Assembly: GCF_026151205.1 (NCBI RefSeq)
Contig: NC_087078.1
Coordinates: 12,259,118-12,323,117, forward strand
Direction of reading: 5' to 3'
From: Bolinopsis microptera
Taxonomy: Eukaryota > Ctenophora > Tentaculata > Lobata > Bolinopsidae
Length of the DNA: 64,000 nucleotides
Part shown: one piece after another, positions 5,325 to 34,400 of the stretch
How the letters are laid out: every line of letters starts with the position of its first letter
How positions within the stretch are numbered: the first letter of the stretch is position 1
Made by a program: the position numbers and the translations under genes
The notes under the pieces: model-generated
Database searches by the model: none
Seen by the model: only the letters and a program-made list of their open reading frames with translations
Told to the model about the DNA's origin: nothing

Positions 5325-5380
5325 TAGTTAACGTTTAACTCAGTACACTCCACGGTATCGTGTATACTGTGCTCCCTCTA

Positions 5381-5965
5381 CCTCCCTCCCTCCCTCCCTC
5401 CCTCCCTCCCTCCCTCCCTCCCTCCCTCCCTCCATCCCTCCCTCCCTCCCTCCCTCCCTCCCTCCCTCCCTCCCTCCCTCCCTCCCTCCCTCCCTCCCTC
5501 CCTCCCTCCCTCCCTCCCTCCCTCCCTCCCTCCCTCCCTCCCTCCCTCCCTCCCTCCCTCCCTCCCTCCCTCCCTCCCTCCCTCCCTCCCTCCCTCCCTC
5601 CCTCCCTCCCTCCCTCCCTCCCTCCCTCCCTCCCTCCCTCCCTCCCTCCCTCCCTCCCTCCCTCCCTCCCTCCCTCCCTCCCTCCCTCCCTCCCTCCCTC
5701 CCTCCCTCCCTCCCTCCCTCCCTCCCTCCCTCCCTCCCTCCCTCCCTCCCTCCCTCCCTCCCTCCCTCCCTCCCTCCCTCCCTCCCTCCCTCCCTCCCTC
5801 CCTCCCTCCCTCCCTCCCTCCCTCCCTCCCTCCCTCCCTCCCTCCCTCCCTCCCTCCCTCCCTCCCTCCCTCCCTCCCTCCCTCCCTCCCTCCCTCCCTC
5901 TCTCCCTCCCTCTCTCCCTCCCTCCCTCCCTCCTTCCCTCTCTCTCTCCCTCTCCCTCTCTCTCT
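5381..5965. repeat. (CCCT)n / (GGGA)n microsatellite, about 585 bp
   Basis: This is a nearly pure tetranucleotide array with a single interruption near 5432 and a degenerate right edge of CTCT and CCTT variants from about 5900. The minus strand is (GGGA)n, a sequence class able to form G-quadruplexes. Because the unit is 4 bp, every frame is open on both strands. This produces 215-239 codon open frames of Pro/Ser/Leu or Gly/Arg/Glu that are not genes. Confidence 0.97.
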
Positions 5966-6337
5966 TTTCACTTGACATCGTACTGTTATATACTTCACTG
6001 TGAATAGAGCTATGAAACATTCCAATTTTACCCAACTCTAATGAAAATTGCCCTACCACCGGCAGGCCCAGGGTCGCATAAACCGCAATTGATCGGATCC
6101 AATCTTATCAGCTGATTGTATAAGTTCACACTGGTTTTGCTATTAATAAACTGCTAACCTTACGGTACAGCCCAGCCTTTCTTGCCCTATAAATATAAAT
6201 ACTGTAAGAAAATAGTTTCCGATAGCGAGCGATATCGTATATTTTGTATTGTTTATGATCCCCTGAGCCAAACATCTTTCAATCCAATTGAGATATTGTT
6301 AGATATCAGACGACTTTCGGGGAGCTGATGCCCAGAT

Positions 6338-11971: not shown

Positions 11972-14392
11972 TCTTTTGATGCTATTGAAATCTATTTTAA
12001 TCTAACGGTCAGACATTTAAACGGGTTGATGTTTACTTGAAAGTGGTCGGAGTCTCGTTGCCAACCAGTTCGATAAACTTGTGTTTTATTTTATAATTGC
12101 TGTAGGGAAAACATATAAATCAAGATGTTTTATTGAATATCATACAAATAAATCTGTTTAAATAAAAATAGCTCATTTTCATGTTAATGTTATGATTGAA
12201 ATAAAAACAGTATCTCATATTAACTTTTGGTGCAGTAAACCATCAACATAGAATCAAAATAAGTTTTAGAAAATAACGATAATATCAAACTTGTAAATCG
12301 ATTTCTCGATCAAGTGTCAAGACATGATCACAAAAATAAAAAAATTATCACCTTTGAATGTAATTCATCACAAACAAAATTTAAATGCAGAGACTTCCTT
12401 AATGATAGTCCTGTTAAACTTTTACTAACTATAAGAAATAAAAAACAACAATTGATACGTCTTACTCATGCTTACAACTTATTGCACTCAACTTAACGGG
12501 TAATACAAATTTATCGGTTTCTAATAGTTGAAGGACCTTTTTCTAATGCTACGCCATCCATTCACATCAAAGCTGGGCAATACTTAATACTTTTTTAGCA
12601 ATAGCCACCTACCCCACTCATCAAGTTATACCAAACTAATCGTTCTGACATGATATAAGATAATAATTTTAAAGTTGACGTAATCCCTTACCATGGCGTC
12701 ACCACCGAGGGACCGAGGGTTAGGTAAGTAAAGAAATTAACTTGAATCAGGCAATCGAACTTTGAAGGACACGCAAGGTCGCAAGCTGCGAGTGAACGTC
12801 TTAACCACGGTAAGCAAAACTTTGAGAATCTCCGATTTTTTGTGACTTTCCAGAGGTAATGGAAATGTTACTGAATAATTATACAATGTGTTTCGAATCT
12901 GTCCCATTAGGAATCTGTTTGGTCGCTACAGGTTCGATCCTGGAATAAAACATTTAATTAGTTTAATCCTTCGTAAATATCACTTCTGGAGCTGGAAAAG
13001 CCTATTTTTACTTTTAGTAAATAGTATCATGAATCACGCATAATTATGAATATGATTAAATAAAAATTAGGTCGGCTTTAAATATAACGGCCGATATACG
13101 ACCGTACTTAGACCTTGCTAAATAATGTCCAATAAAATCCATTTCCCAAGAAATGAGAAGGCTGTACAGTACAGCTGTATAGTACAGCTCTCGGCCCTAT
13201 ATCCTTGAAGTTAAGAAACTGCTGCTGATATAAAAATCGGACCTGTGATTAATTTCCTCCACTGGCGACTCAGACTGAGTCGTCGTAGTCGTCGTAGTTG
13301 CCGTCTGTAGTAGAAACGTTTCGATTGATTCACCCTGAAAGTTATGCCAGTCAAATATCGTTTCTCCCAATTTCATAGATCAATGTTTTGATGAACGTCT
13401 GCATGAAGTGTAAGTCAGATATAAAACCAATTTTTGCTTCATGTGCAGCTTGGATAATCGCACTGCATCGACTCAAATAAATTTATGTTTTGAAACGATT
13501 GTTCTCTGTTTATTTCTGTGACAAAATATGTATAGTTTTGTTAGTTCAAATTTGGGCAATGAATAAATTTGATCAATAAATGATTTATCGTAACTATTTC
13601 GATAAAATTTGTGATGCATTCCTCTAACTATACTATACTAGCTTAAATTTGGATCGGGAGTGGTCATCAGGTCACCTCATTTTACATTTTAGTTAATCCT
13701 AATTTCTGATGCTACCAAAATCTTCGACATGCGCTGATTGGGCGTGGGCTCCCTTAAAAGATTTAACTCGTTCATAGTTTTTGCCTGCAAACCTCTCATG
13801 GCTGCCTCGACCATGATGCTCTGGATATTTTAATAAAATCCGTTTATGTTCTTAATTGGAAATCTTTACATCCCAGTGCTCGCACTTTAATGACGCATAA
13901 GATCGGGTAATTGCAAGGAAGTTATAATGTATAGGTATTGCACTACAGCAATACAGGGTGTTTCGAGACTCGTGTCCAAATTTAAAATTTTAATTTTTAA
14001 TTTTATGAAGGAGCAAAATTAGATGCAATCGGTTTTAAAATGCTGGTTATACCTTATTATGTATAAGAGGATCTAGAAAAACCTCAAATAGAACTGTAGA
14101 ATTATCTAACATGGATGATTTAGAATTTAACTCTTTCGAATCGAAAGTTAATTAATTTTTTCAGTCCCATGGACTGGTTTTTATTTTTGACAATGATGAT
14201 ATTCATTATATATGTATAACCTGTAATACTATTCTGTATATATCTAATTTCGTTTTCCAAAAAAAAAAAAGTTATACCTTACATTTACACAAAAAAAAAA
14301 GTTATACCTTACATTTTAGTTATCTCTCACATATTCGTTTCAAAACTCATCTTTTTGCAAATTTGTATCCTTTCGAAATTTTCTTCGAAAAA

Positions 14393-16407
14393 ATGTCAAA
14401 ATCTGGCATATCAGACGAAATGAGAGTAGCCATGGTCAAGCTTTTCTATGTCAACGGAAGTAGTTGGACTGCTGCTAGGAGGGCACTTTCAAAGAAATAC
14501 GGTAATGCAGGCAGGAAAATTCATCTTAGGACTATTCAGCGACAAGTGACGAAATTTGAGAGAGAATTGACTCTCAGAAGGAAACCAACAGGTGGGGGTG
14601 CAAAAACGGCAGTTAATGAGAAAAACATCAAAAAAGTCGACCAAATCCTTGACAAAAGCCCTCGATCGACGTTCTGTAAGGAACATCGCTAAGAGAACTA
14701 AGCTACCACAACCGTTTGGAGGATCTTGAGAAAGGAGTTGGGCAAATACCCATACAAAATTCAGATGTTGCAAGAACAGACGGCACCCAACAAGCAGCAA
14801 AGAGTGGACTTTGCCAAGCAATTTGCTAGCAAAATTGAGTCTGATCAAAACTTTTTGAAGAACCTTATTGTCTCCGATGAAGCTCACTTCCAACTATCAG
14901 GGTGGGTTAATACTCAGAATGCCCGAATCTGGTCAGATAAGCAACCCTATGCCACCGTGGAAGGTCCAAAAACCAGAGAAAAGGTGACTGTTTGGATGGG
15001 CCTCAGTTACCATGGTGTCTTCGGACCCCACTTTTTCGAGAATGAAGAAGAGAAGGCAGAGACGATAAGGACAGCAAATTACATTGCTATGTTGCGTGGA
15101 AAAGTTATCCCAGTACTTAAAAGGAAAAAATACTTGATTCCTGTATATTCCAACAAGACGGGGCCCCTCCACACTGTTCGCACGAAAGTTTGGCTTGGCT
15201 GAAGGAGCATTTTGGGGAAAGACTGATATCGAGGAAAGCTGAGTTCAGCTGACCTCCCTACAGCCCTGACCTGAATCCGGCCGATTTCTTTTTGTGGGGC
15301 TATCTGAAAGAACGTGTCTATTCAGACCCAGTCCCACAAACAGTAGATGAGCTAAAAAACAATATCAGAAGGGAGGCTAAAAAGTTAACAAGAATTTCGC
15401 CGCGGTAACACCACGCACGATCAAATTTCCCTACTGCCTACAATGTTATTGTTCTACTTTATTGTATCCCAGAGTGGTGTTTGGCGCACGTGATAATCGT
15501 TTATATGATATTAGGCGTGCAGAACTTGAAAAATTCTGCGCGCATCTGAGGTGTCGCCGTCGATCTGTATGTGGTTTGGTTGTAGATCATTTCATACTTT
15601 GCGCGGTTTTGTTTCGTGTTAATAGCAATAACGATGCGTATCATGTCACCGGTCACGTCATATTACTGCATCGTATGCCAACTTTATTGACTTGTGACTG
15701 TAATAAAATATTCTGCCTCGTCTTAGTTATTATTTTTATCTAATATAAACTAATACATTTTGATGCTTACTCGACGCATCTATACTTATAGCACCATCGA
15801 TTTTCGAGCCTTTTATTTGATATACGATTCTTTAAAAGCATACCGCAATCTTGATATTAGCTTCTTGAATGTAAATGTAAAGTAACATCTGTTCTTAACT
15901 ATGTATTCCTATGCTTTTTACCATTCAGTGTCGATTAACTGTATAATAATCAGCCACGAGTTTATCAGTTGATATCATAATTTTATTTGTTTTGACTTGC
16001 TGAATTTTATCACTCGGTAATTAATTAAGCTTGTCTCACCAAAATAACACTTAAATTTATGATTGATCCGTGTGTAACAGTCGTCAAGCACCAAAAACTG
16101 GTTGCTATGCCTGTAATTAATTAACACATAACTGGCGTCGCGCGCGCAAAATAGACTCCTTTTATACACATAATTATAGGGGAGTGGTCTATATTGCGAA
16201 GGAGCAGACTTTTGTCGACATCGTAGGACCGTCGGGCCACCTCATATATCCAAACCCGATTACTTATTCCCTACGATCTTTTTGCCTTCGGCAAGAGTAG
16301 GGAAAAAAATTGACATGGTAAAACGTGCAATAGACAATATGCTTCCGAGGGTTCAAAACCTTCTATGCAGAAAGGGGGCTTGGTTCGAAAAATTGTTGAA
16401 ATATTAG
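14393..16407 (+). pseudogene. Broken Tc1/mariner transposase
   Basis: The reading starts at ATG 14393 (MSKSGISDEMRVAMVKLF), an N-terminal helix-turn-helix of the DUF4817 kind, and continues into a DDE nuclease domain. The first catalytic Asp is in VSDEAHF (about 14874), the second in QQDGAPPH (about 15160) and the third in SPDLNPADFF (about 15260), with about 36 residues between the last two. Breaks seen: frameshifts near 14673, 14707 and 15153, an in-frame TGA near 15250 where related transposases have Trp, and an insertion after about 15402. The C-terminus resumes at about 16312 and ends with RKGAWFEKLLKY at 16407. No functional protein can be made. Confidence 0.88.
15403..16311. mobile_element. 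Nested ~0.9-kb insertion inside the transposase
   Basis: Transposase coding stops at about 15402 and resumes in a compatible reading at about 16312, so about 909 bp are foreign. Short inverted motifs lie just inside the edges (AATTTCCCTACT near 15424 and AGTAGGG plus AAATT near 16297-16311). A hairpin with GCC-TTC-GGC lies at about 16268-16306. The only long open frame inside (15462-15743) has no known domain. The exact ends and target duplication are not resolved, so its class is unknown; a non-autonomous DNA element is most likely. Confidence 0.6.
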
Positions 16408-16537: not shown

Positions 16538-17702
16538 TATATATTATACGGCCTTCTGCAAGTATAGCTATAACTATAATTAATATTTGAAATTCAAATT
16601 AATGCGTCGAGACATTTATCAAATATAATTATCAAATATTACTTTAAGTTGCTCATATAATGCGTCGCTACTTGCTACGGTTATGGCATTCACCCTTTGT
16701 TTTTTAAAAGTCAATTCAGTTCAATAAATTTCAGGCAAATGTCAGGAAACTAATTATTTTCAAAACTGTCTTACTTGACTTATACAATAACTTAAGGTTA
16801 AGATATCAATTGCAATTGGTACAGAGTAGATCTAAGAGGACCTGCACTAAACTTGCACTGAACCTTGATTTCTAACTTTGAATGACTTGGGTTTATAGTC
16901 TTTAAGATGCTTTACCGATTCACGGGTGATATTTTTAAATTGTCACTAATGAGTTTCTAGGGCCACAGAATGTTACTAATCCAGTCACTGTTGAGACAAT
17001 GAAACCCAAGAGACTTGGTTATAAAAACTTAACAAGAGCGCCCATATTATCAACTCTAGGACAATCAGGTGGACAATCCCATCACAAGATCTAATTCTAA
17101 ACCCGGGTAGCATAAAACTTTAGAATTCCAAAATCGGAGACATCAGGATGTAGGAAACATGACCTGATGTTTGGAGACATCAGGATGTAGGAAACATGAC
17201 CTGATGTTTGGTCGTTTGGAGACATCAGGATGTAGGAAACCCGAAACATGACCTGATGTTTGAAGACATCAGGATGTAGGAAACATGACCTGATGTTTGG
17301 AGACACCAGGATGTAGGAAACATGACCTGATGTTTGGAGACATCAGGATGTAGGAAACATGGCCTGATGTTTGGAGACATCAGGATGTAGGAAACATGAC
17401 CTGATGTTTGGAGACATGATGTTTGACAGCGATGACTTTTTTATGAAAGTAGTATAGGTCTTAGCGGTGAGATCTATCGTCTTACAGTTACAGTTAATAT
17501 TTATACCATTTGCATTATCGGCTCATAAAGGTAGACGCCAAACCAAGTAGCAATCCAGTGTCATATCTGTTTCACAATTCACAGTCATTAGTGGCTGCAA
17601 AGATCAAGAAGCCCTGAGACTACGACACCTTCTGCCATTATTGGGGGCCGCACACTCTTAACTTTGAAGCTTTTATATATCAAATTAGTGGCTTGTATTT
17701 TG
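16538..17702. other. Intergenic stretch with 37-bp minisatellite
   Basis: There is no gene. It holds the minisatellite at 17136-17428 and otherwise AT-rich unique sequence between the mariner element and the 3' end of the receptor gene. Confidence 0.5.
17136..17428. repeat. 37-bp minisatellite, about 7-8 copies
   Basis: Tandem units of about 37 bp contain GACATCAGGATGTAGGAAAC followed by ATGACCTGATGTTTG. Each unit carries an internal inverted repeat (ACATCAGG and CCTGATGT), so single strands can fold into a row of hairpins. Copies differ by a few bases, and one has a short extra segment (GTCGTTT). The minus-strand open frame across it is a repeat artefact. Confidence 0.93.
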
Positions 17703-20700
17703 TTATAAGATGTTGCCGTAGCTGGTCACGGTGTGCTCATTTTTGCTAGGTTTTACGGCTACGTAAAAGCTTTTTAAGTATGCCACAAAATATAGATAGA
17801 ATTAAAATAGATAGAATTAAAATTTAAATATACACATAGTTCCATAGATGGAACTTGGAACTTCAGCGATAAAAATGTTTGAAATTCTAACCAGAAGTTT
17901 AAGTTCTCCATGTGGTTTTATTTGCATATCTTCCGGAATGTCTTTTCTTGCGGTGTCTGTCAAGATTATGTCTCCAACTGCATCAGAGTGAAATATTAGC
18001 AAATCAAATTGTCTATTATTACGAATAGTATTACAATTACATACGGTGAAACGTAATTAATTGTCACCATTGGGAGCACGAGATTTTCATATTACGAATT
18101 AAATATTTCTCACAGTTGGCGTTTTCCAAGAGAGCATCAAGTTGTGTCGCTAAATTGCTGGTTATGCAAAGTCGAGGATTGGAAGTGTCTGCCAGAATCA
18201 ATCCGCCTGATGCTACACCTAAAAGATTGTTTTTTAAGAGGGTTGTTAAAAAAATCGCATGTAACGTAAAGTTCAAAAAATTAGTTCCATTATACATAGA
18301 AACCCGTCCTGTCAATGCCTCATTTGAGAGAAAAAGTCGTTTGGCTGATAATCCCTTAACTTTGTAAGAGATGCAGCAGCAGTGTAATATTTGATCATCA
18401 TATAACTTGCTCACTATAAAGGTTATTTGTCGAGCTCCTCTTAACTCTTAAGTCGTAATTTTACTACTGCCAGCAACATTTATAATTACATATCTCGGGC
18501 TCTATGATCGCTGTAATACTAATGATACTACTGCAGCATTACTAAGAAATATGAGTAATATCTGCGTTGATCATAAGGAATAACATAATACTTTATATGC
18601 GTTAAAGAATCTATTATACTTGTTCTCGCTGTTCTATAGCTCTATAGCAAAGCCATTGATCACCATTGCATTTATAAATTAGTCAACAGTATAAATAGAA
18701 ATTCCCGAATGTTCTGGGTGACCATTTAAATGCTTTCTGTTGATTTGAACGTTGCGTGATTTGATTTCTCGAGATTGATTAATAATATGAAATGAATTAC
18801 TTGCACCACCATTTTGCCATTCTGGTTTAAATAATTGTCTGAATTTCCCACTATTCTAATACAGGACCCTCTTACTCAATTTCAAGATTTCTTCGCGAAA
18901 TACATAATTTGCCACAGTTTATCAATATGCCAATATGTTAATATAGGTTCAAAGACTGAACCTGAATGAAGAGCCACTTTTATCGTGATATTCTTCTCGG
19001 ACGCCTCCCTTAGAAGGGTTCGTGCGTATTCCATCATCTGGTGAGGTGCTGCTTCCTCGTTGTAAAGGCCCGATATCACGACGGTGTGTCCATTACTGTC
19101 CACCACCTGAAGATGTTAACAATTAACATTTAATTAAATAATTAGTGATTACCTGATAGATATTAATAAGGTTATTACTCTTTAATTATATATGATTATT
19201 TAATCATCTGCTTTTGTATGGGTACACTGCTATATTATGTTAGCTTTGTCTTATCGAAGGTAAACTTAAACGAATAGATGTATTTCATTTCTGGGGAAGT
19301 CCTGATACTCTGACTGTTTTTGGCTGCAGGTGTGGCTCATCAAGGATAAAATTTAACTTTCAAAGGGAAGAACACCTTGTACCATGTTGGGTCTCCAGTT
19401 TGAGCTTTATAGGGACTAATGACTAAGGTCTTTTATTTCCATGCAAAGTTATGTTTCTGCCTAAAAATAGAAAGCTCTATAACAATTACCTTGATAGCTC
19501 ATTATATGACACCAAATTCGAGTGACACGGTCACTGAGCGTTATTATCTTCATTGTAATTATAATTAGGACTTCGTCTTGTCAAATTTCTCAAGTTTTAT
19601 CAAAAATTGTCAATCATTTTGACACTTGGCAGCGTCTCATTAGTTGACGGGACAGGAATGCAACCGGTTGATGTTATTTCCCCATTACATGAAATTCTTC
19701 AGTATAACCGTAAAAGGGTTTTAATCAACTTGCTTGGCATCCTACATTGGCCTTTAATTCATAATCATTGCCTTCATTGGGAATAATTTTAAAACTTAAA
19801 TACTTTCTTCCAATCATATTTTGATATTTCGTACACCTATATCCTAGAAACAACAACATTTATTAATCTTATTTAATCCATCTTCATGTCTTTAGAATGC
19901 ATGCTACTTATTTTTCGTAATATCAAATATGTATTCTCGAGGGATTGATCTCTGATTTTAATGGATATCTGCTCAAGTAATATAACTTTGCACGGGGGCA
20001 AATAATTACTCGGATGTCTGGTGTATACTGTATGAATATGTCAGAAGTTCTGGTAATTAATAAGCCCCATCCTTTATCACCCAGTCAAAAGATTACTCCT
20101 AGATACTTAACAATCGAGACAAAATGTATATCAAAGATATTTATTAAAGATTATGATAATTTATGTGGTGCCAGGTCCTACAATTCTCTAATGCAACAGC
20201 TTGATAATTTGTATCGGAGTCCACGATAACCACTAAGTCGTCAGATTGATTGTACTGGTCCCCTCTGCAGTAGTTATAGCTTTATAGTGGAAAGTAGTGG
20301 ATCACCACCGGATTACCACTTGTCCTCTGGACAGTTCTCACGGCTACTAACAGAGCTAGGCCACCTCTGAGCGTCATAATCTTGTTAGGGTTCAGTACAA
20401 CATGCTTGAGGAGCGCCAAGAGTGGCAGCTCTTTTCTAATTATTTCCATCCGTGCATAGTACTTTAATGTAAATCATTAACGTTTGTACTATATGGGTCG
20501 TACATTACTTCCAATTTCTCTCCTTCATTATATTATGGGCCTTAAATAATAGTAATACCGGCCTATAGTTTGTATTTATCTACTCCTTGTTTGTCATCTA
20601 CAGAAATTTTGATTACTTCAACTTGATAAATGTTTTATACTTTTAATAATACAGCAATGTAAACGAAGATTTAGATAATTTAAATATGAACAAGCCGGCA

Positions 20701-22416
20701 CGATTATGGCCTTCGGCAGAACTCATACTTTTTGCATCATTTTCAAATAAAATCAACACTATTATAATGAGGAATTTTAGAAAAATTAAATTTCCCCACT
20801 TCCCCGTTTTCATTCAAATGTTGGGTTTAAAATAGATTGTGTTAACTATTAAGTCAGCTGAGGTTTGTAGTTGTCACTGGAAGGGAATATGACATAATGC
20901 GACTTGAATTCTAACCATAGGTTTCTACTAAACGAATTTTGGTATTTAACGAATTTTGGCTCAAGATAGATTTCCATTTCTTTATACTTCCTCGCTCTCC
21001 AGTGTTGTCTTGGCTAAGCTTAACAAGTTAACACTTAAGTTAATCTCACTAATATAAAACAAAACACACTCACGTACTCAAGGCCCTCAAAACACTTTGT
21101 TATAGGCCTCAGGTCTGTCACTGACACTATACAATCTTAGATTAATGGTCAATTTGAAAATATGACAGGCTTCGAGCAGGCCAATAATTGATCTTCCTGC
21201 TTTGCAAAGTTATTTAAAGTATTTAAGACGTGAGTGCGTCAAGAATACTAATAGATTTGAGTAATATATTTTGAAAGGATAAAAGTATCGCAATATTGTT
21301 GCATCGATTTTAGTAATGGTGGTAAATTCGTTAATTTACGCCGACATTATTTTGTCACGTAAATTGGGGTAATCCTATATCTTGGCAAATGCAAATGTCC
21401 GATATTTCATAGCTCCCACTTTTCGATTAAACCATCTACAAATATATTCAAAATTCAAGACAGAAGTTCACGTTATCTAATTAAATTTTTACAAACCTTT
21501 GCTTCAACGCTCTCGGATCTTTAAATCATAATTTATGATTAATTCACTCGAATTAATTTACTTGAATTAAATACATTATATTATATCCCAAATCTTCATT
21601 CCATACCTGATAGATATCCCTGGTGACCACCTCCGTATGGTTGAGTTCCTCGTAAGCGTTAATAGCAGCTATCTGATCTCTCTCCTCCAGCACCTTTACC
21701 TTCACTGCTGCTCCCGTAATGTACTTGTTCTCTGCCTTCTCCACTTCCAAACCTTTCTCTATCTGGTCTATTACCTTCCTGTGAAATAAACTTTATTGAT
21801 ATCGCAGAGTTTGGTGATTAATTATTATTCCTTTAAGGGAGATCCTGAAGGGTGAGATGCCAGAGAGGGAAATATAGGGAGAAGGAAATTTATTAAACAG
21901 TTGAGCCTTGATTCGTTTATTACGATTACAATTTAAGTCACATACGTTCCCTCCCTGTGACAACTACTAAACTCAGCAGGTTATCTAGTAAAATATAGTA
22001 AAATATGTTTACCTTGATTGGTGAACCAGATGTCTAGACTCTAGCAAATTAGATGATGATTCATATCATTAAACCTATTAACCTGTCACATTTCTAACCC
22101 TTCCTTACATGAAATTCGTGACTCTGATTTGGAGGATGACGGACGCTGCAATTACATAAACGCACGACAGTTCTAGCAAGTTTGACAGCCCCAATAAGGA
22201 CAGTTTTAGTAAGTTCTAGCAAGTTTGACAGCCCCAATATATATACAGCCCCAATAAGGGTCTCGTCATCAGATTCCTAACCTGGGCAGGTATTTAGAAA
22301 GGCTCTTGCCAGCCTGCTGACTCCGCAGCTGGTGCGTCTTCATTGCCACTTTGTTCTCCAGGTCCTCCGAGTACTTCTCCATCATCTTCACCACTCGGTC
22401 TGTGATACTCAGTGAC
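17703..22416 (-). CDS. Exons 17-22: dimerisation helix and degenerate cyclase domain
   Basis: Exon 17 gives the signalling helix (DRVVKMMEKYSEDLENKVAM) ending in KYLPR, like the usual LP motif. Exon 18 aligns through IDQIEKGLEVE but has ITGAAVKVKVL where active enzymes have the first metal-binding aspartate motif (S-D-I-V-G-F-T). Exon 19 has NGHTVVISGLY in place of the I-G-D-A-Y motif: His878 replaces the second metal aspartate. Exon 20 keeps HSG and PRLC but then reads ITSNLATQLDALLE: Ala943 and Asp947 occupy the catalytic Asn and Arg positions. Exon 21 has HGELKLL, matching the R-G-E/D-I strand. The fold is recognisable while every core catalytic position is changed. Confidence 0.82.
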
Positions 22417-25400
22417 CTGGTAAACACATGGTGTTAGTTAGTGACGTGTATTTTGTTGTTAGAGCTTGGATTAACCACCCCAAAACAGCTGGTAGTGGTA
22501 ATTCCCAGAATCAACTGTATATGCCTGATGACGCAACCGTCCAATATTAATAATTTCGTTGTGAACTTCCTCGCCATATTGTGACGCTGACATTTCGCTA
22601 TTTAGTTAGCTTGTTGATTATGAATCACCCTGTTTAATGCCATTAGCGTATTTGAAAACACCCATTTCATTATAATTATGGTGTTTCAAAAGTGCATATA
22701 ATATATTAATATAACTGACTAACTGCCTAAATGCAGTTTTCGAATCATGTTCGTCTAGGAGTTGATCGAGTTGTGCATATGTCATGCTCTGTCCTGATCC
22801 TAGCTCTGTCCTGATCCTGGCTCTTTTTTTGCAAAAAAAGAGCCAGGATCAGGACAGAGCTATCGACTATTTCTTACGTCATTTTAATGTTTTGACAATT
22901 GACGCAGTGTAATCACTTTCGCGAACGATCTTTCTTTAAATATATATATAATTTTAGTAGTCACCATTCTAAACAAGTTTTTCCTATTACTAAGTATATA
23001 TCTTGTCAGAGTTATAACCTCATTTATTTGATGGAGTGTAAGACTTGTAAACAGTCGTCTGTCGGTTATACTACCTCAAATCTCCCTAAGAGATTCTCTA
23101 ACCATAAGAGTCACATAAAGAAAGGTATAAGAAGTTGTAAATTAGTTAACCATTTTTTGAAATTGATCATGTTTTAGATTTTAGTACCATAGCCTCCTAT
23201 AATTCCTCACTTGGTAAGCACCTTTCTGTCATTACAGTAGACGCTTTAGTATTTGAGCCAAATATTAGTAAATCAGACAAAGAAAAGGCTATGGAAGCTA
23301 GAGAGGTGTTCTAACAAACCCAATTGAAAACCCTTGAACGGTTTGGGGGTATGAACACCCTTGATAGTAACCATATACTTTTTAAGTCTGCCGGAGCTTA
23401 GTTTTGGTTTTTGTTTTAATCGTAGATTTTATTTAGTTATACCGTTATAATTCCAGAGACGTGTTTACAAATTTTTTACTTTAGTATACGTTTTACAGGT
23501 TTATTTGTGAATCTAAGTGATTTTCTGAGAATCAGTTATCAGTATTTAGATATGAGATAAGATAAGACTAAGAGTATATTTTTTCACAGCTTTTAGTTCC
23601 TTTTTTAAATTTCCGTTCATCAGATTTTCCCACTTCTTTTAGTTTGTATATATTCTCAATATTGTATATGATTCGTATTTGTTATAGTTGCTTTAATGAT
23701 ATAATTTCTCAGAATTTATGTTAATAAATGATGCAAAGAATTACGAGGATCTTATCTAGTCCTATCTAGTCAAAACCGCTTTTTTATTGTGTAGAAGTTC
23801 AGCAATGAAATATATTTATATAATATATTTGCAGTGCAGTGGTATGGATTATGAATTACGATTTTGCTTCATGTAACTTTTTACACTGCGCTCTTTCAAT
23901 TTGTTTTTACGATCCCTTCGTCAGTTATTGCAGATTTTATTGTTTTATGAACTTGAAGACTGTTTGGCTGTCACGTGACATTTTGTAAATTCTATCGATT
24001 TTTAAATACATGGTTTGACTCAGTCGAACAGTAATATCGTAACGAATATAGCAACCATTTCTCGCGAACGTGATCAACAAAAGTATCGATTCTTCACGAC
24101 ATCAATTTTAAAGATAATGAACAAATACCATCACCAAATTGTTACTCTGGAAGTGGAAGCACCCATAGTGGGCGTCTAGCCGCGCACTGCTTGATTAATC
24201 GAGCTGAGGATGAACATGACTGGTGAACATGACTGTTGAACATGACTGGTTTTAGCTTTATTATAGGTCCCTCAAAGTCAAACTCAAACTGAATGATCGG
24301 TGAGAGTTGCTTTAATTAAAGCTGCTTCCTCGAATTACTGTCACTGATCAGACGTCTACATCGTTGTCATATAAAGTTCAAATAATGAATCAGTTCGTAA
24401 ATGTGAAACTGATTACGTGCGTAGTTAATTTTTTCAAATTAGCACACTTTTTGAGACATTGCATGCAGTGAGCGTCACGTTTGAATGGATTTGCACGGCT
24501 TCGCATGTACCCTCTTCGTCGGCCCGGCTATAACCCATTTCATCGATGAGATAATGAGTCAGGATGCCTCTGAAAAGAATGAATGGAACATCTCATAAAA
24601 GTTCATTCGTCAAAGCAGCTGTTTCATATAGTTCCCTAAGAGATGATCTAGACAAAAAAGGTTGTCACTTGTCAGCTTTCCAATTTTTTGTCCTTAGTTA
24701 TATGGCCCTTAATCGATTAAAACACTCATCAAACTTTGAAGTTTTCTGAGATAAGTCAAGCTTACGATAACTGTAAAGTGTAAAGGCCTAGCTCAGCAGT
24801 CTGCTGCGATCTATTACCTCTACTCAATTTTTTCTGACAATGGTCAACATAACATTGCGAACACTTTATAAACAATTGATGGTAAACCAACAACGGCCTA
24901 ACTAAATAAAAACATGCCTCAACTAGTTTTATTTCTATTTAATAAGTTCTTGAGACTCATTCTGTACTAACAAACCGATAGGTTTTTGACCTAATTTTAT
25001 TGGAGTTATCTGTGATTAGAAATATTGAATATCTAGCCCGTTAAAAAAGCAGAGGTATTTGTTTGAGCTTTTTACCCACCAAGATAATTAATCGGATATT
25101 ATCCAACTATCAACCGGATATTATCCAACTATCAAGATAATTAATTACTAGGCTGGAAATTTCCAGTTGATATGTGCGACAAATTGCTGTTCATGATCGG
25201 TAAATATGAACTTTCTGAGTGGTTTTAATTTGTTTATTAATTAGATATACTAGCAGGAACCCGTCTAACCCTAAAGTGGTGTCAAGACTCGAGAGACTAA
25301 AATAATTATTACCTATTTAATTCGCGTTTTTGACACCACTTGAGAGTCCAAATTTTGGGCACTAAAATTATTATTCCTTGGCCAATTTTTTATTTTTTCA

Positions 25401-28400
25401 TGCTGATTTGAAGGCCATTAAAGCATTTGACCCAGTCAAAAAAGTTTCAGTTGTATATGTTTTACGGTTTTTGCGGAAAGTCGCGTTAAAGTTGATGCCG
25501 TGGTGTCAGTAAAATGGCACGGATATATACACATATATATATCGTCTCGCTTTATATATAGTAAGATATATCTAATTAATAAACACTTGGCGTCATGTAT
25601 TCAGGAAATCAAGAAAACCCTTAACTGAAGAATAACGGAAATTATGAGATATATCTCATAATTTCCGTTATTCTTCAGTTAAGGGTTTTCTTGATTTCCT
25701 GAATACATGACGCCAAGTGTCATCTTGGTGTGTTTTGCAGGCCACTCGTCGCTTACTTGTATAATTAATTTGACTTCTGCAACGTAAGATAGGATAATGG
25801 GGCAAGTCAGATTGGCCTCCGTGCTAGGAATTGCCTGCTCGTCAGCATTTTTATTACCTCACAAGCTCATAGTCCTGAGCAGGCAGCCATCTATCTGATC
25901 GACAAGTTTGTTTCCTCCATAGTTGGTTCGTGCGTCAATTTTTCGGGAAAAGTACGTAAAGTGCGTTTGAATTATTTCGTGCGTTAAAAGTGCGTTTAAG
26001 TACATTTACCGTTGAATTCACCGTTTTACGTTTTTTCGTACGTTAAGTGCGTTATGTTTAAAAAGTACGTTAAGTGCGCACGAACCAACTATGGTTTCCT
26101 CAGTCTTAGTTCATTTCATGCTGGCGCTAATTTTAGACTGGATACCTTTTCTCAATATTCGAGCTTTTATTTGGAACTAAAACAAGTCTTTCATATTGTG
26201 GAGCCAGGATGTGAACTGGCTACACCTAGCTGGTTAAAGCACTTCCATCCCGATACATAATGATGAAATACCCGAGACATTCGCTCCATCCACTCATAAA
26301 AGCAAAATGTTGGACGAAGCAACTAGTTCTATCTACCTACGTATGAATGGCTTGTCACTATGTCAGGAATTGCACAGCGGGCCATGTTTCTTCAGTTATG
26401 TATCAGCAATCTGACAAGATTTGTTCTACATTGGCTCGCCACTCTCCTTATAAGTTTATAAGTTCAAACATCGAAGCAGTGGAGGTTCGTGGATATAGCT
26501 TGTGGTCATTTTATAAGTCTTAAATACGCCTTCCTGGGATTGAACTTAATGTCAAGTGAAATATAATGCTTTTAATTGCGATCCACCTATCACCGGCCTT
26601 CGATTTTTTTCTTGACATATTGAGGAAGCAAGATTAAATTGCTAATATTAATAGAATGTATGATGCCAGTAAGAATGAGACTGTCATATTCATGGAGTTC
26701 TCTAGAACAAGCACTTCGGTTTAACTGTATATCATTATCAAATACCCACCAAAACATTTATCCCTATTTGATCGTGCTAAATCGTTTTAGAACATTCATG
26801 ATTCTGAATTCTGATCGAGCCCTTTCAGCCAATCGCTGATAGATTGACTGCTGCCCCTCCCTAGAATTAAGCATTCTGTATTAAGCCATATTTAGTTAAG
26901 ACCAATAGACTATGCATGCATAATGAAACGTCTTTTCTCGAGAAATGTTTGTAAGACTTTTTATGAGCGGTACCTGATCGCATAACGGGGCAGTAGTTGT
27001 TTTGTGTGTTTCTTGATTATTCTACCTTGGTCCTTGGGTATGCAAAGTGCAAATCTTATTTTGTTATTTGAAATGAAATGTAGCATTTATATCCCGCTTA
27101 TATATTTACATTAAAAAATAACATAAATATCAAGCAGTGTTGCATAGGTACGGAGATGGTATTGAATATTACAGAACTACAAGTACACCAGACAGCCTCC
27201 ACAGTCTACGAGACCGTTAGCGGAAAGAAGAACGACTACTCGAACAGTCAATTTGCGCTGATGATGTCCTGCTTATGTAAGTGCAACATGTTGATATTCT
27301 TCTGCATCTGAAACTACATTTCTGTATTCTGTAATCACTTCATTTTCTTGTGTCTCGCATACATTGACATAAGCTTTATCATTGATACAGTTGAACAATT
27401 GAATTATCTTGCGCCGTTTAGGAATCATTCAAATAGTAAATCGCAGCCGGACTCTTGGATCACCCTGTATCATAATTCATAACCGTTGTTTGTTTTATTG
27501 TGTGTCCCAATAAATTATAATAATCTATTTATTCTTTCAGGTATCCTCTCGTTATTTGCTGTGTTCGGGAGTGTCCTACAATTTCTGGCCGTTTATCTGG
27601 ACAGATCCCTCCAAAACTCCAGTAACATCTTCATCCTCTCCCTCGGGTGTAGTGACTTCATCGTGGGGATCTGGACTTTACCCACCATGGCTGTATCTGT
27701 TTATTTCAGGTCCTGGGTGTTATCCGACTCTGTGTGCCAGTTCTCTGCTTTTGTTGACTCCCTTGCTATAACCGCATCAGTGTGGACCCTTGGATTTACC
27801 GCTCTTGACAGGTGGATGTTAGTGAAGTCTCCGATAAGTTACAAATCCCAGATGAAGCAGAAGAAAGCAGTTAAAATAGTGGGACTGATCTGGTTTATAT
27901 CAGCTCTGGCTGCTGCACCACCTCTTCTAGGCTGGAGTGGCTACGACTTCTCTTCATACAGCCTCTCTTGTGCCATGTCTTCATCAGGCGGATTTGACAG
28001 TGTTCACAGATACTACTTCCTGTTTTATGTCTTCCTGACCTTCCCAGCCCCTATTATTCTGATCGTGATATCGTACAGCTACATCGCGTGGTTCGTGCTG
28101 GGTGGAGGCAATAGTGGCCGCCAAGTTTCTATTTTCAACATCAGAACTGCCAAGATCACCGCTCTACTCACCGCCTTTGTGATGGGATGTATTTTACCGA
28201 CCTTCATCATAGGTCTTATCTTCTGGTGCGGATTCCAAATACCCTTTTCAAAGGCAACCAGCAAGATAGTGATCTGGGGACTGTTAGCAAACAGTGGGGT
28301 CAACCCACTTTTATACGGCTGGCTGAACTCTCAATTCAGGACGGTTTACAAAAGAATGTTCTGGTGCCTTATTGTCTGTAAGAAGTACGCGACTCTCAAA

Positions 28401-31400
28401 CGATCTGCCTTCAGCACTCAAATGATGCTGACTCCAACTCTGAGGAGGTCTTCTGCCATTAGACCTGTTGAGAACAAACAAGCTGCATCTCTTTTCGGGT
28501 GGACTGAACATTTCGATAAGTCTCACTTGCATCCGTGAAGAAACCCTGGTTATTTACACAAATACGTTATATGAGACTAAAATGCTTAAATATTGATGGT
28601 AGATTGTAATTTATAGTAATGATTTTATTTTTTTCTTGCTGATTTCATTGCCATTGACTATATGATCGGCTAGGCTATGTCATTTCATGCATACATTAAA
28701 ATTGCAACATATTGTTGACCTCGTCTTTTGGCACTATGGATTTAGTTTACAGTCTGCATGACGACAATCTTTAGGATTCATTATTTGCCCAATCATCAAA
28801 TAATTTCTCTATGTCAACATTTCGATTTAAATCTAACAGGATTCTCCGGTTACCTCATAATTCCTTAATATCTAAAATTTAAAACCTCTTATACAACGTT
28901 TTATTCGGGCGTCAGGTGTCATATTTGCACTAAAACTTGAGTGATTTCAGTAATCCAAGTGCTCAAATTCCGATTAAAAGGAATATAAACAAAGCAATGA
29001 TGCCTTTTTGAGGCGTGAAACATTCGTGCAATGACTAAATAAAAATTGCCCCATGACGTGATTGTGCCATGATTTAGTTTAGTTGTTATTTTTAAATGAT
29101 AGACATTGGATTGGTTTTAGATAAAAATGGTTCGCTGAATTTTGGGCAATCAAGTATCAACTCTTCTCGGTCTATTCGTGATTAACTGATTATCGTATTC
29201 CTGATATATTTTTACTTTATCACTTACCTAGATCTTTTAATTACTCACCATAGAATTTACAAAATGATTTAAATTCCAGAGGGATGCCCTGCTGAGGTAT
29301 TTCAATTTACTAAATAGTAACCTGTCTGGGTTCATGTCTTCCAAGGCTTGTACAGTATCACTCATATTATTCCTCTCAAAAGGCATCTCTCTCCAACACT
29401 GCTTCATCAGCTCTATTGCTTCTGCTGGTACTGCATTAGCTGAGTCTTCTGCTCCCACTTGCTGAGAGTTTTTTTTTATTTTTTAATTTTTTAAATTAAT
29501 TTTTAACTTGCTGAGAGTTGGTATTAAACCATTTAGAATTTAAAATGTAACGTCTATGACGGTTAAAGGAGACCAACTCTATTAACAACAAAGTGTTTTA
29601 TGACAAAAAATAAGGGCGCATTCAAGATGGCAAAAACCCGGGTTTTTTGTAGAAATCATTCAAATTAAAATGAGCATATCATATAATTATCGTGCTCCTT
29701 ATTTTAACAATTTTAATGGCGAAAAGAAACAGCTGTGGCATTTACCTCATAGCTTGTTTTGTCTGTAATATGCATAAGCTCCAAATTAGGCCTATACGGC
29801 GGCGATTCTCGATTTCGTACTTTCTGTATTATTTCTGAAAAAGTGATTCTGAAGGACTGTTGAACTATTGTACTAAAAATACATAACCCTATGTAAGCTG
29901 TAATACATGAGTGGCCTTTCTAATATTCAATTCAAGAATAATGGATCTAGATTAAGCATAAATTTTCTGAAAGACAACAACTGAAGTGCACGTAACAGTA
30001 CTACTTAATTAAATATCTCATGAAAACCTACTTTCAGGAAGAATTTCAGCGGTGTCATAAGGAGCCTCTCTTGCAAACAGTTCGAACATGACAATTGAGA
30101 AACTGTATGTGTCACACTTCTGGACTTCCTTCGGTGATCTTTCCTTGGAGCTCGGCCATAGTTTCTCCGGGGCGGCGTAAAACAAATCTGAGTTCATGCT
30201 TTGTTTATTGTTTGCTAGGTTAATATGTGTTATTGAGTGCTTGAGAAGTAGTAACTGTTAAGAAACTTTTGGATTTTTAAAGCGATATTTTTATTAAAGA
30301 TCCATAATGATCATATTGCTAAAAGTATATGATGATAAGATTGCCTATAATTCCTGAGACAGTCTAAGGTGAAATAAAGGAAGAAAATATGATCAATGAT
30401 ACATAGATAACAAACATTTCAAGGTTAGCGAACTCAGCTTTTAGCGATAATATTTTAATAATAGGAAATTAAATCAAATGCAAATTCATGATTCGTATTG
30501 ATCATAATCCTGTCAGAAACTCATTTTTCATCCAAGTTGATCAATTTTGAAATTTAAGCACCATGTCTTTTTTAATCAATTAGATAGTGTAAATCGTGTT
30601 ATCGTGTAGATCCCATGAAACAGATTTGAGCCAATTATTTTTGGTTTTTATTTTTAATCAGAGCAAATTAACTGCATAATCTCAAGGAGAGTGGAGACTA
30701 TCATATCTATTAATTTTCTTTTTTCATTCGAAATCCTTCTAATATAAGCTTCTCCACAAATCAACAAATGCTTTTCCCAAGAAAAGTGCCTTTCATCATT
30801 CGCTTAAAGACATGACGGACGCGTCTCCGACATGACGGACGTCCCCCGACAATCGACATGAATCACACTCACGATGCGTGGGAACAGTTGACGTTTTGAG
30901 GCCCCCATCCTTCGAGGAATAGGAAGTGAGATTGAAAACACCATTACCTTTTCCGGATATTAATCTCTCCTTTTCCGATGTGCCCTCTATAGAGATTGCT
31001 TTGTCAAATAATCAAAGCAAACAAGATCTTACTTTATAGAATAACTTAATTCTAAACATTTTGTTTCCTATTCCATTTGTAATGGCACTTAATTTTCTTT
31101 AAAAAAGCGAAAGCAAGCCCCTCTTTTAGCTAAGCAAGCTGGTGCTGGTGCGCGGTGGTAGCTGACTTATTATACCTCTTAGAATAGCAACATCATTGAT
31201 TTCTAAAATCAATGTGTTTTGATCAGTACTGTCTTGTGAAGCGGACAGGTTAGTTACCGTCGTCCCGCTATCTATGATCAAAACGCTTCTTTATAAACGT
31301 TTTTTTAAACAATACCATTATCGTAAGATTTAAAAATATCAACTTGTAGGTTACTTGAAACCTTATTTAGCGCATGCAATTGAGTAGTATACTGAATATT

Positions 31401-34400
31401 TCCATCGCCTCTTAAAGATCAGCATAAGACGAACTAAGGTCATTATATCGAGTCACTGCTGATAAGTCACTAATAAGTCACTAATAAGTCACTATTTGAT
31501 CACTAATAAGTCACTAATTAGTCACTAATAAGTCACTAATAAGTCACTAATACGTCACTAATAAGTCACTATTTGATCACTAATAAGTCACTAATAAGTA
31601 ACTAATTAGTCACCTATTAGTTATTAATTAGTCATTAATTAGTAACTGCTAATACCAGTTGAATGAAAGATAATTTATATTTTATAACTTCATGATAAGC
31701 TTACCTCTCACGTTCGCACCTTTATTCATTGGTTTCTCTTGCTTTGTGTCCTCAAATTCTCTGTACATGTTCTTCAAACCAAAATCTGCTACTTTACATA
31801 CCCAATGACTGTCTACTATACAGTTCGAGGTCCTCAGGTTTCCATGGTAACCAAACGTAGAGTTATGAAGATACCTCAAACCCTTTTTGGGATAGAAAAA
31901 TGTTTCAAGAGAATAGCACATTGACGCCTGCCTGCATATTTCAATTTATTTTGATATATTCTTATCTCAGCCTCACTTAACTTTTTACGTCACTACAGCG
32001 ACGTTGAAATAATTCCAAGCCTTACAAGGGTCCTATAAAAGACCCAAATACCTTAGCAACATCTATTACTAGAGAGAGTTTGAACATCCAGTCAAGATGC
32101 ACGTTATCATTATGAGCTAGGTCCTCAAGAGAACCTTTAGAGCAGTACTCAGTGATCACTGAACAGTATCCAGGGTCGTCACATAATCCGTAAAACGCTT
32201 CCAAGTTTGGATGAGTCTCTTTCTTTATCTGAAAACAAATGTATAATTAATCATAACAATTTGTTTAAAAGAAGTTTATGGATATTTATAGCAGCTCTGC
32301 AGATTGAATGACGACTAACAAAAGGTTTTATATGGTTGGTTTCGAGGATTTTAAATCTGGAATTTATTTGCATACCACGTAAATATCCTCCAGAGTCTCC
32401 TTGGTGATAGTTATGTTTGCGACGGTGAGATTTTTAACCACAACGAAGGTATGATTCCATCTGGCAACAGATATATCTGATGGTTTGTCATCAACCCCAA
32501 ACTGAAATGATTTCAAGCTCGGTGAATCATTGAGCAGTTATAATATTACTGCACTTCAAAACTAGACAACTTAATTTTACCAACAGATATTGTCCATTTT
32601 AAATGTCAATTTTGCCTGGTTGAGTAGTAATTGATGTTGAATATAAATTCGCATGATCCATCGTCTACCTTCCTGCTTCCAGACACACTTTTCTTCACAG
32701 CAAAGTCCAGCTCACTAAAGGGAATCTTCCACTCGACCTTCCTATCTTCATTGTTCCTGGTTCTCTGCCTGTGGATGATGAACCCTGCAGCAGCAATCAC
32801 CGCCACCACCAGAACCACGCAGATACCCACCACTGCAAATAGTACTGTGTTGTCAGTACCCGCTGTGAGACAACGGTTATCTTCACACGGGTCCACTTTC
32901 TTATCGTTCGGCCATCTGAAGTGAACGATTGTGTTGGTACTTGTTTAAAATCTTAATATATTCTCGCATATTCTCATTTTCACATATTCTCATTTTCACA
33001 TATTATTATATTCTAATTTTCATTAGACCCATTAATAACTGCGTTACAATAAGATCCTATTTGTACAATCACCTGACTTTGTCGTTGTGAACAGTAAACA
33101 TGCCCGGATCCTCCAAGTGCTGGGTAACCACGTCTACAAACGCTCCGTCCTGGTACTGTCTCAGGTTCCAGATGGCGTTAGCTGGTTCCGCTTTATCGTT
33201 TAGCGTTTCTAACCTGTATGCACCTGCAATACAATATGTTAAATTGCTATAATAATCAACAACTTGATTTTATCGAACATCATGGTCTTTACTGTCACTT
33301 CATTAGAATGGAAATGAATTTTGGAATATTCATTAATAATTAATCTTCAGAATTCAGATTTGCTGCTTTGCTCTAGTCCACAACTTACCCGTATACTCAA
33401 GGTCGCTTAACTGCCCAATTATAGCTTCGTATTTCCAATCTCTTTCACTGTAAGTGGCCCCAGTTTTCTTGTATGCTGTACCCCAAGCGGTAATTGCATT
33501 GTACATGTATGCCAGGTATAGCTTCACTGCCTCTGGCTTGCCCTGAGTATCAGCCATTGTTAATACTTAATACTAATAGTGCCCACAAGAGTTTATATCT
33601 ACTTTTCAGGTTATGTGTTGAATTTATGTTTAAATAATTCGTAAAGTTGCTCAGTTATTTAATTTCTTTAATGTAAAGCTGAAGAGAAAACATTTGGAAG
33701 TAAGGTATATACCTTTAACACCGCATCCTGATCTTCAAATTTCGCCAAGAATGCATCGTAAGCTGCCGGAAAGCTTTTGTGAGGGGTATCATTTTCCAAA
33801 GAAAAAACATTCTCGTAGTAATCTTTATATTCCGACTGGACGAAACTCTGCGGAGGTTACATTTGACTAATTGTTTATGCATAATTATTATAATTGCTAC
33901 TTAGCATAAATAGCAAAATTAGCTTCTTCGTTTATACAGGAAATAAAGGATATAAACTTAAAACTTTATAAGTTATTATACATTTTTTAAACTTGTCATC
34001 AATTCTTACTTGATATCTAAACCAAGCGTAGTTGGTTTTCTGCCAGGCTTCAGTCTTATCCACGCCAAACGTATCAGCAACTTCTTTCGCAGCATTCTCC
34101 AAAATGAAATTTGCGTCACCATCGTACGTAGGTATGAAGAAAACTGTGGATATTTTATGAGTATTAAGTACAGCCACTGTTTAGTGTTGATGCGTCAACA
34201 ACTTTTATATATAAAAAACATACGCACAATCTCAATTTATCTCTTGAGAATGCAGCCAGATAAATTTTGTGTTTACCCCAGGCGTCCGATAAGAATGAGT
34301 CAAGTTGTTCCTTTGTCCCTTCCTGAATGGCATCGTCTTGTACTGCTAGACTCGCCACTACCGTAGATAACTGCTTCAATTTGAAGCGGTCTTCAGCGTT

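Follow-up and report, generated by a model that had tools for sequence, protein, structure and literature searches.

A receptor guanylyl cyclase-like gene of the ctenophore Bolinopsis microptera with a cyclase domain lacking metal-binding and transition-state residues

Introduction

The window analysed here is a 64,000-nucleotide stretch of the genome of the ctenophore Bolinopsis microptera (contig NC_087078.1, positions 12,259,118 to 12,323,117), the minus strand of which carries a gene for a receptor of the guanylyl cyclase family. The C-terminal domain of this receptor corresponds to a class III cyclase domain without the metal-binding aspartates and without the Asn and Arg of the transition state. 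The gene had been described from its letters as an intact receptor pseudocyclase, and this original prediction was followed up by computation on the window and on the 264.65-Mb assembly (232 contigs) to which it belongs. Elsewhere in this assembly, the best PDB match of a glutamate-receptor locus is the ML032222a receptor of the ctenophore Mnemiopsis leidyi (E 4.5e-65), in line with a ctenophore genome. All positions are those of the window unless a contig is named.

To our knowledge, little has been established about peptide signalling in ctenophores. If the description is true, the receptor would be a double pseudoenzyme, since receptor guanylyl cyclases already hold a pseudokinase, and if confirmed it would provide a natural case in which the structural and the enzymatic roles of the cyclase fold are separated. 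Receptor cyclases act as dimers and their kinase-like domain has been described as devoid of kinase activity (PMC1435932), and three ANPR-like receptors have been reported in the ctenophore Mnemiopsis (PMC10073611).

Gene model and receptor architecture

A splice search combined with manual refinement against family features gave a single open frame of 1058 amino acids, distributed over 22 minus-strand exons from 36848 down to 17817; the exon phases agree throughout, and the only stop is the terminal one. The claim of 22 exons free of stops, frameshifts and phase conflicts was therefore borne out, whereas the predicted gene end at 17703 was not, the stop codon lying at 17817-17819. The cyclase exons do stand at the 3' end of the gene, as had been described, but in the numbering used here the exon at 22416 is exon 18, which encodes the signalling helix, and the cyclase part comprises exons 19-22 and not 17-22. 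The least certain joins are those of exons 1/2 and 3/4.

Exons 1-10 (33073-36848) encode a signal peptide and an ANF-receptor-type ectodomain (amino acids 1-439), assigned from the splice model and Pfam; they lie at 36623-36848, 36450-36534, 35705-35811, 35448-35535, 35119-35216, 34277-34417, 34010-34143, 33713-33847, 33389-33542 and 33073-33223. The end of the ectodomain, a single transmembrane helix and the start of the intracellular part are encoded by exon 11 (32669-32915), as judged from its translation and from collinearity with NPR1. The kinase-homology domain occupies exons 12-17 (29322-32501; individually 32376-32501, 32052-32228, 31705-31882, 30032-30214, 29746-29834 and 29322-29461), and is followed by the signalling helix, or dimerization linker, of exon 18 (22282-22416) and by the cyclase-like domain, which begins in exon 19 (21607-21778), continues through exons 20 (18962-19106) and 21 (18114-18218) and ends with the last strands and the C terminus in exon 22 (17817-17977).

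The identity of the gene as a receptor guanylyl cyclase, claimed in the original prediction, is upheld by the ectodomain (Pfam ANF_receptor, amino acids 76-390, E 9.9e-16), the transmembrane helix, the kinase-homology domain (Pfam PK_Tyr_Ser-Thr, E 8.2e-31) and the collinearity with human NPR1. The latter is the best match of the whole chain in the PDB, residues 388-996 of the query corresponding to 360-969 of the NPR1 chain (E 3.3e-49), a stretch that begins at the end of the ectodomain and extends into the cyclase domain.

Six canonical paralogues were assembled from exon pieces in the same genome, namely rA (C8:15314), rB (C7:3735), rC (C7:6397), rD (C7:6603/6598), rE (C9:584) and rF (C3:14160), the models of rD and rF being without part of the C terminus. 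All six carry both metal Asps, the Asn and the Arg. A second close copy of the receptor gene itself was not found in the assembly. In the kinase-homology domain of the receptor, the lysine of the VVVK motif (Lys545) and the DFG motif (amino acids 656-658) are present, and HGN (636-638) stands in place of HRD, as it likewise does in NPR1 and rB. The core of this domain, about 90 amino acids, is 47% identical to that of NPR1 (42/89) and 48% identical to that of rB, compared with 46% (42/92) between rB and NPR1 and 29% between NPR1 and an intronless paralogue, rG, which is described below. In the signalling helix, 18-20 of 41 residues are identical to those of rA-rD, and the helix is two residues shorter than in these paralogues and in NPR1.

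Exons 19-22 as a cyclase-like domain

The four introns that separate exons 18-22 all have counterparts, at the same codon and in the same phase, in one or more of the six canonical paralogues. The intron after the signalling helix (phase 2) is shared on both sides with rA, rB and rD and on the acceptor side only with rF, while rC has none and that of rE is different. The intron between DIYQ and VVDS (phase 0) is shared with rB only, where it lies at YK/VETIG, and the intron that interrupts the Gly codon of HSG (phase 1) is shared with rA, rC and rF and absent in rB, rD and rE. The intron after NAN (phase 1) is found on both sides in rC, and its donor side suggests that rD, rE and rF have it too, but rA and rB do not. 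Between the PRxC motif and this last intron lie 17 codons, in the receptor gene and in rC alike. These coincidences with the canonical paralogues fix the register of the alignment.

In this register, the match of each exon to the family was compared with 20,000 shuffles and was reached by six of them for exon 19, by none for exon 20 and by 11 for exon 21. The result for exon 21 depends on the anchor: with the reference segment ending at the shared intron the count is 11, and with the segment ending one residue earlier it is 2,907. The references left out of these tests were GC-C for exon 19, GC-C and rD for exon 20, owing to differing piece lengths, and rG and the second intronless paralogue, rH, for all three exons. 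The shuffle statistics cover exons 19-21; exon 22 is supported by its intron position and the splice model. The profile alignment to cyclase domains proposed with the original prediction was also run: a hidden Markov model (HMM) of ten receptor-cyclase domains gave 11.3 bits, a score reached by two of the 16,069 shuffles reported (20,000 were made), and hmmalign placed only the C-terminal part of the domain. The hhalign probability against the cyclase family was weak, at 46 with the exon 19 used here and 77 with a longer form considered below, and the sole PDB match of the cyclase part, obtained with a query containing one surplus Gly, was a nucleotide cyclase (6sir_A; weak, E 0.74).

The domain has diverged strongly. 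Its identity to NPR1 is 17%, compared with 63-72% for five canonical paralogues, and its identity to the six references for which values were reported is 16-20%, compared with 56-72% among the references themselves, human NPR1 included. The end-to-end alignment with a cyclase domain that had been claimed holds in so far as the part is cyclase-like, but it is interrupted by gaps. Seven residues are deleted in exon 19, best placed after Thr886 (~21715). In exon 20, VVDSNGHTVVISGL aligns with VETIGDAYMVVSGL of the family, and the exon is ten residues shorter than in the family, exons 19 and 20 together being 17 residues shorter than the canonical domain. In exon 21, NPRLCITSNLATQLDALLENAN aligns with a 22-residue family segment, with a two-residue insertion. 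Taken as sequence, exons 19-22 are a class III cyclase-like domain by descent, and the gene has the domain order and the shared intron positions of a receptor guanylyl cyclase.

Catalytic residues

The best anchored gap in exon 19 removes the family segment IYFSDIV, in which strand 1 ends and which carries the first metal Asp (Asp1). The next four gap placements leave a gap or a Tyr at the Asp1 position. The alternative register of the original prediction, in which the motif reads GAAVKVKV with Lys at Asp1, is possible, but anchored scoring favours deletion of the segment. In exon 20, the second metal Asp (Asp2) is replaced by Gly928 (19089-19091) and the guanine-contacting Glu by Val924 (19101-19103), and in exon 21 the Asn and Arg of the transition state are replaced by Thr995 (18145-18147) and Ala999 (18133-18135), respectively. 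Guanine contact by a Glu and a Cys sets the substrate choice of guanylyl cyclases; of this pair the Glu is lost and the Cys, Cys988 (18166-18168) within the PRxC motif of exon 21, is retained. In unanchored MAFFT alignments with the same exon 19, all five modes left a gap at Asp1 and put Gly at Asp2. Four of the five also aligned Thr with Asn and Ala with Arg, whereas the einsi mode placed Asn and Arg elsewhere.

The losses at Asp1, Asp2, Asn and Arg that had been predicted are thus all found, although the residues named were different: His878 within NGHT becomes Gly928 in the intron-anchored register, and Ala943 and Asp947 become Thr995 and Ala999. The wider claim that every catalytic residue is gone applies to the metal Asps, Asn and Arg and not to Cys988. 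Neither the metal Asp pair nor the Asn and Arg by which a class III cyclase enzyme is recognized are present, and the sequence supports a receptor pseudocyclase that is very probably catalytically dead.

Selection and decay

Neutral decay from paralogue exons to the observed identity was simulated under a simple mutation model, in a set of 300 runs starting from rA, rF and rC without insertions or deletions, and in a set of 400 runs starting from rA and rF with insertions and deletions of the same size at random places and the same gap optimization. Stop-free frames remained in 0/300 and 1/400 runs. Averaged over the alignment columns, the gene had a BLOSUM score of 0.550; the simulations had a mean of 0.148 (standard deviation 0.122, maximum 0.459), and none of the 400 runs reached the value of the gene. 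The hydropathy correlation of 0.418 was reached by none of 20,000 shuffles. Codon scores per codon for exons 18, 19 and 20 were coding-like, at 0.150, 0.209 and 0.098, relative to 0.090 (standard deviation 0.064) for 190 coding pieces, which were also the training set, and -0.067 (standard deviation 0.079) for 73 non-coding pieces.

Since the kinase-homology core is as NPR1-like as that of rB while the cyclase part is only 17% identical to NPR1, the divergence of the predicted protein is mainly confined to the cyclase domain, although the signalling helix has also changed somewhat. Because neutral runs were rarely stop-free and never as conservative as the gene, the pattern looks like purifying selection on a cyclase fold without an active site, and not like decay. 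The earlier statement that the gene is not decaying is in agreement with this; it had been drawn from the open frame, which alone is a weak argument, and the case is carried by the simulations together with a kinase-homology core that shows no acceleration. A receptor that is catalytically dead and the cyclase fold of which is under selection is probable.

Other cyclase sequences and features of the window

Two neighbouring intronless receptor guanylyl cyclases, rG (C2:8349241-8349825) and rH (C2:8353684-8354124), have GREPRYANNLES or GKEPRYANNLES in place of the canonical 12-residue Asn/Arg segment, such that in ungapped register Asn is replaced by Arg and Arg by Asn; from their sequences, rG and rH look like half-site cyclases needing a partner. 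In another pair of cyclase exons (C2:4549758-4550313 and C4:4040555-4041265), GDAYM is changed to GECLV, Asp becoming Glu, and the Asn/Arg segment is near-canonical (VNTAARMKS). In a further pair (C8:8699750-8699935 and C9:10364411-10364557), VNTASRMES is changed to VNLATAMEE, with Ala at the catalytic Arg.

Exons 17 and 18 are separated by an intron of 6.9 kb, which houses a single-exon rhodopsin-family G-protein-coupled receptor on the opposite strand (27483-28538, plus strand; 7tm_1, E 3e-41) and, at ~22800-22862, a near-perfect inverted repeat around GCTCTGTCCTGATCCTGGCTC that lies some 400 bases 5' of exon 18. Tandem units resembling GACATCAGGATGTAGGAAACATGACCTGATGTTTG lie at 17130-17430, just 3' of the receptor gene. 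At 14156-15202 (plus strand), two stop-broken frames resemble a Tc1/mariner-type transposase by eye, the first having a weak Pfam match to a DUF4817 helix-turn-helix (E 1.6e-4), and at 5328-6104 there is a long run of short repeats with PPSLPPSL in open frames.

Proposed function and rival explanations

In a class III catalytic site, the metal Asp pair comes from one chain and the Asn and Arg come from the other. Neither half-site would be supplied by the receptor chain, so that no complete site could form in a homodimer or a heterodimer; control of an active partner, as put forward in the original prediction, could therefore only be inhibition, and a decoy or dominant-negative role would be the likeliest. 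The receptor would reach the membrane, bind its ligand and dimerize through the ectodomain, the signalling helix and the cyclase fold. No cyclic GMP (cGMP) would be made by a homodimer, and pairing with an active paralogue, for which the six canonical receptor-type cyclases of the same genome are candidates, would leave both sites incomplete. Ligand or partners would then be occupied silently, and cGMP output would be lowered wherever the proteins are co-expressed. There is a precedent in a dominant-negative NPR-B mutant that has effects in rats (PMC5157132). For a catalytically dead receptor that keeps its fold and acts as such a decoy or dominant-negative partner, the chances appear to be even. 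The more specific proposal of a dedicated ctenophore pseudocyclase receptor, in which the fold serves as a binding or dimerizing module that silences active receptor cyclases or relays a signal other than cGMP, is put forward tentatively, and the scaffolding role named in the original prediction is possible.

Several results weigh against a selected pseudocyclase. Pfam Guanylate_cyc was not found in the receptor chain, and NCBIfam gave no match in the last 193 amino acids, even at E 10 in either case, so that retention of the cyclase fold is something we infer and do not observe. The hydropathy correlation was reached in 17 of the 300 neutral simulations and hence separates the gene only weakly from decay, the codon scores of exons 21 and 22 are intermediate (0.055 and 0.010), and the frame read in exon 18 (0.150) is outscored by another (0.222). 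The kinase-homology comparison covers some 90 residues and, apart from the intronless rG, a single paralogue, the canonical rB. The signalling helix has 13 of 41 residues identical to NPR1, compared with 20-22 of 43 in four paralogues, and since it is also shorter, coupling and dimerization may be altered. The open frame, moreover, could persist merely to avoid nonsense-mediated decay of the messenger RNA. The last point belongs to the explanation that the cyclase domain is relaxed and dispensable in a receptor that clears ligand in the manner of NPR-C, which works without a cyclase (PMC6539462). The low identity to the six references, the two internal deletions and the intermediate scores of exons 21 and 22 fit such relaxation, but substitutions in the gene are more conservative than in 400 of 400 neutral simulations, and exons 19, 20 and 21 each still match the family. 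Moreover, NPR-C has lost both the kinase-homology and the cyclase domains and the receptor neither, and this explanation is considered unlikely. It is also rather doubtful, if somewhat less so, that the output lies in the kinase-homology domain, which would change on ligand binding and recruit partners, the dead cyclase fold being a platform for dimerization and chaperone binding. Such an output would suit a core as NPR1-like as that of rB beside a diverged cyclase part, with the VVVK lysine and DFG kept and HGN for HRD, and GC-C, solved by cryo-EM in complex with Hsp90 and Cdc37, is an example of such a receptor held by chaperones (PMC10400071); however, HGN is common to NPR1 and rB and is no specific pointer to a new output.

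The remaining explanations concern the gene model. Exon 19 has a second donor, after 21562 (score 6.1, compared with 8.5 for the donor used), and with the resulting 15-codon 3' extension (21562-21606, minus strand) an Asp falls in the Asp1 column in all five MAFFT modes. This result, together with the retained guanine-contacting Cys988, would suit a receptor that is still a cyclase, through a longer exon 19, through other exons or through a non-canonical site. The extension is nevertheless judged to be intronic because it is AT-rich (G+C content 0.22), its codon score is non-coding-like (log-likelihood ratio -0.15 per codon over the 15 codons) and its use would forfeit the intron position shared with rB; in addition, Asp2, Asn and Arg are absent with either form of the exon. 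A search of the whole 64-kb window by tblastn with ten receptor-cyclase domains retrieved no exon of the canonical type, the best match (E 0.29) being unlike the family; in a positive control NPR1, one of these ten domains, found paralogue exons with E 2.5e-13 to 5.6e-41 among the matches listed. The HMM, applied to 2,905 six-frame fragments of the window, found no other family-like exon, its top match being exon 20 itself (E 0.3), and in a genome search with PF00211 none of 46 matches among 58 scored candidates lay in the window. An artefact of missing exons was rejected, since tblastn and the HMM gave no canonical cyclase exon in the window, and an active cyclase is thought very improbable. 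A recently dead gene, or an artefact of assembly or of the splice model, would be in keeping with weak splice sites, such as the exon 20 donor (CAG/GTTCAG, score 0.4), and with several joins picked by hand. Against this stand 22 phase-consistent exons, the four shared introns, the coding-like codon use of exons 18-20 and the lack of a second close copy in the assembly, and it is given equally little credence.

Comparison with known systems

The receptor resembles NPR-C in being a receptor of the superfamily that would make no cGMP. NPR-C is without kinase-homology and cyclase domains, whereas the receptor keeps both as sequence and in this respect does not have the form of a clearance receptor. 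NPR-C signals through Gi-binding segments of its tail, and is thus a receptor of the family that is functional without cGMP synthesis (PMC6539462).

Class III domains with incomplete catalytic sets are also found in ODR-1 and DAF-11 of Caenorhabditis elegans, an obligate heterodimer to which each chain brings essential residues (PMC5225109), and in the C1 and C2 domains of adenylyl cyclases; in many heterodimeric class III cyclases, each part supplies what the other lacks (PMC8815786). The receptor differs from these in being without both half-sites, and is not the complement of a partner in a shared site. The intronless rG and rH of the same genome are likewise receptor cyclases in which the Asn/Arg segment is altered, but both of their metal Asps are kept and their matches to Pfam Guanylate_cyc are strong.

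A full-length receptor pseudocyclase was not found in open-licence PubMed Central, among the titles and abstract openings of the matches listed, which for some of the searches were part of the total. With NPR1 (GC-A)-type and ctenophore ANPR-like receptors, the receptor shares the fold of the ectodomain, one transmembrane helix, the kinase-homology domain, the signalling helix and a C-terminal class III domain, in that order; unlike the canonical receptor cyclases, it is without the metal Asp pair, the Asn, the Arg and the guanine-contacting Glu, and its cyclase part is 17 residues shorter. Partial cyclase domains are already known, and a full-length receptor in which all metal and transition-state residues are gone, and which would be kept under selection, may be new.

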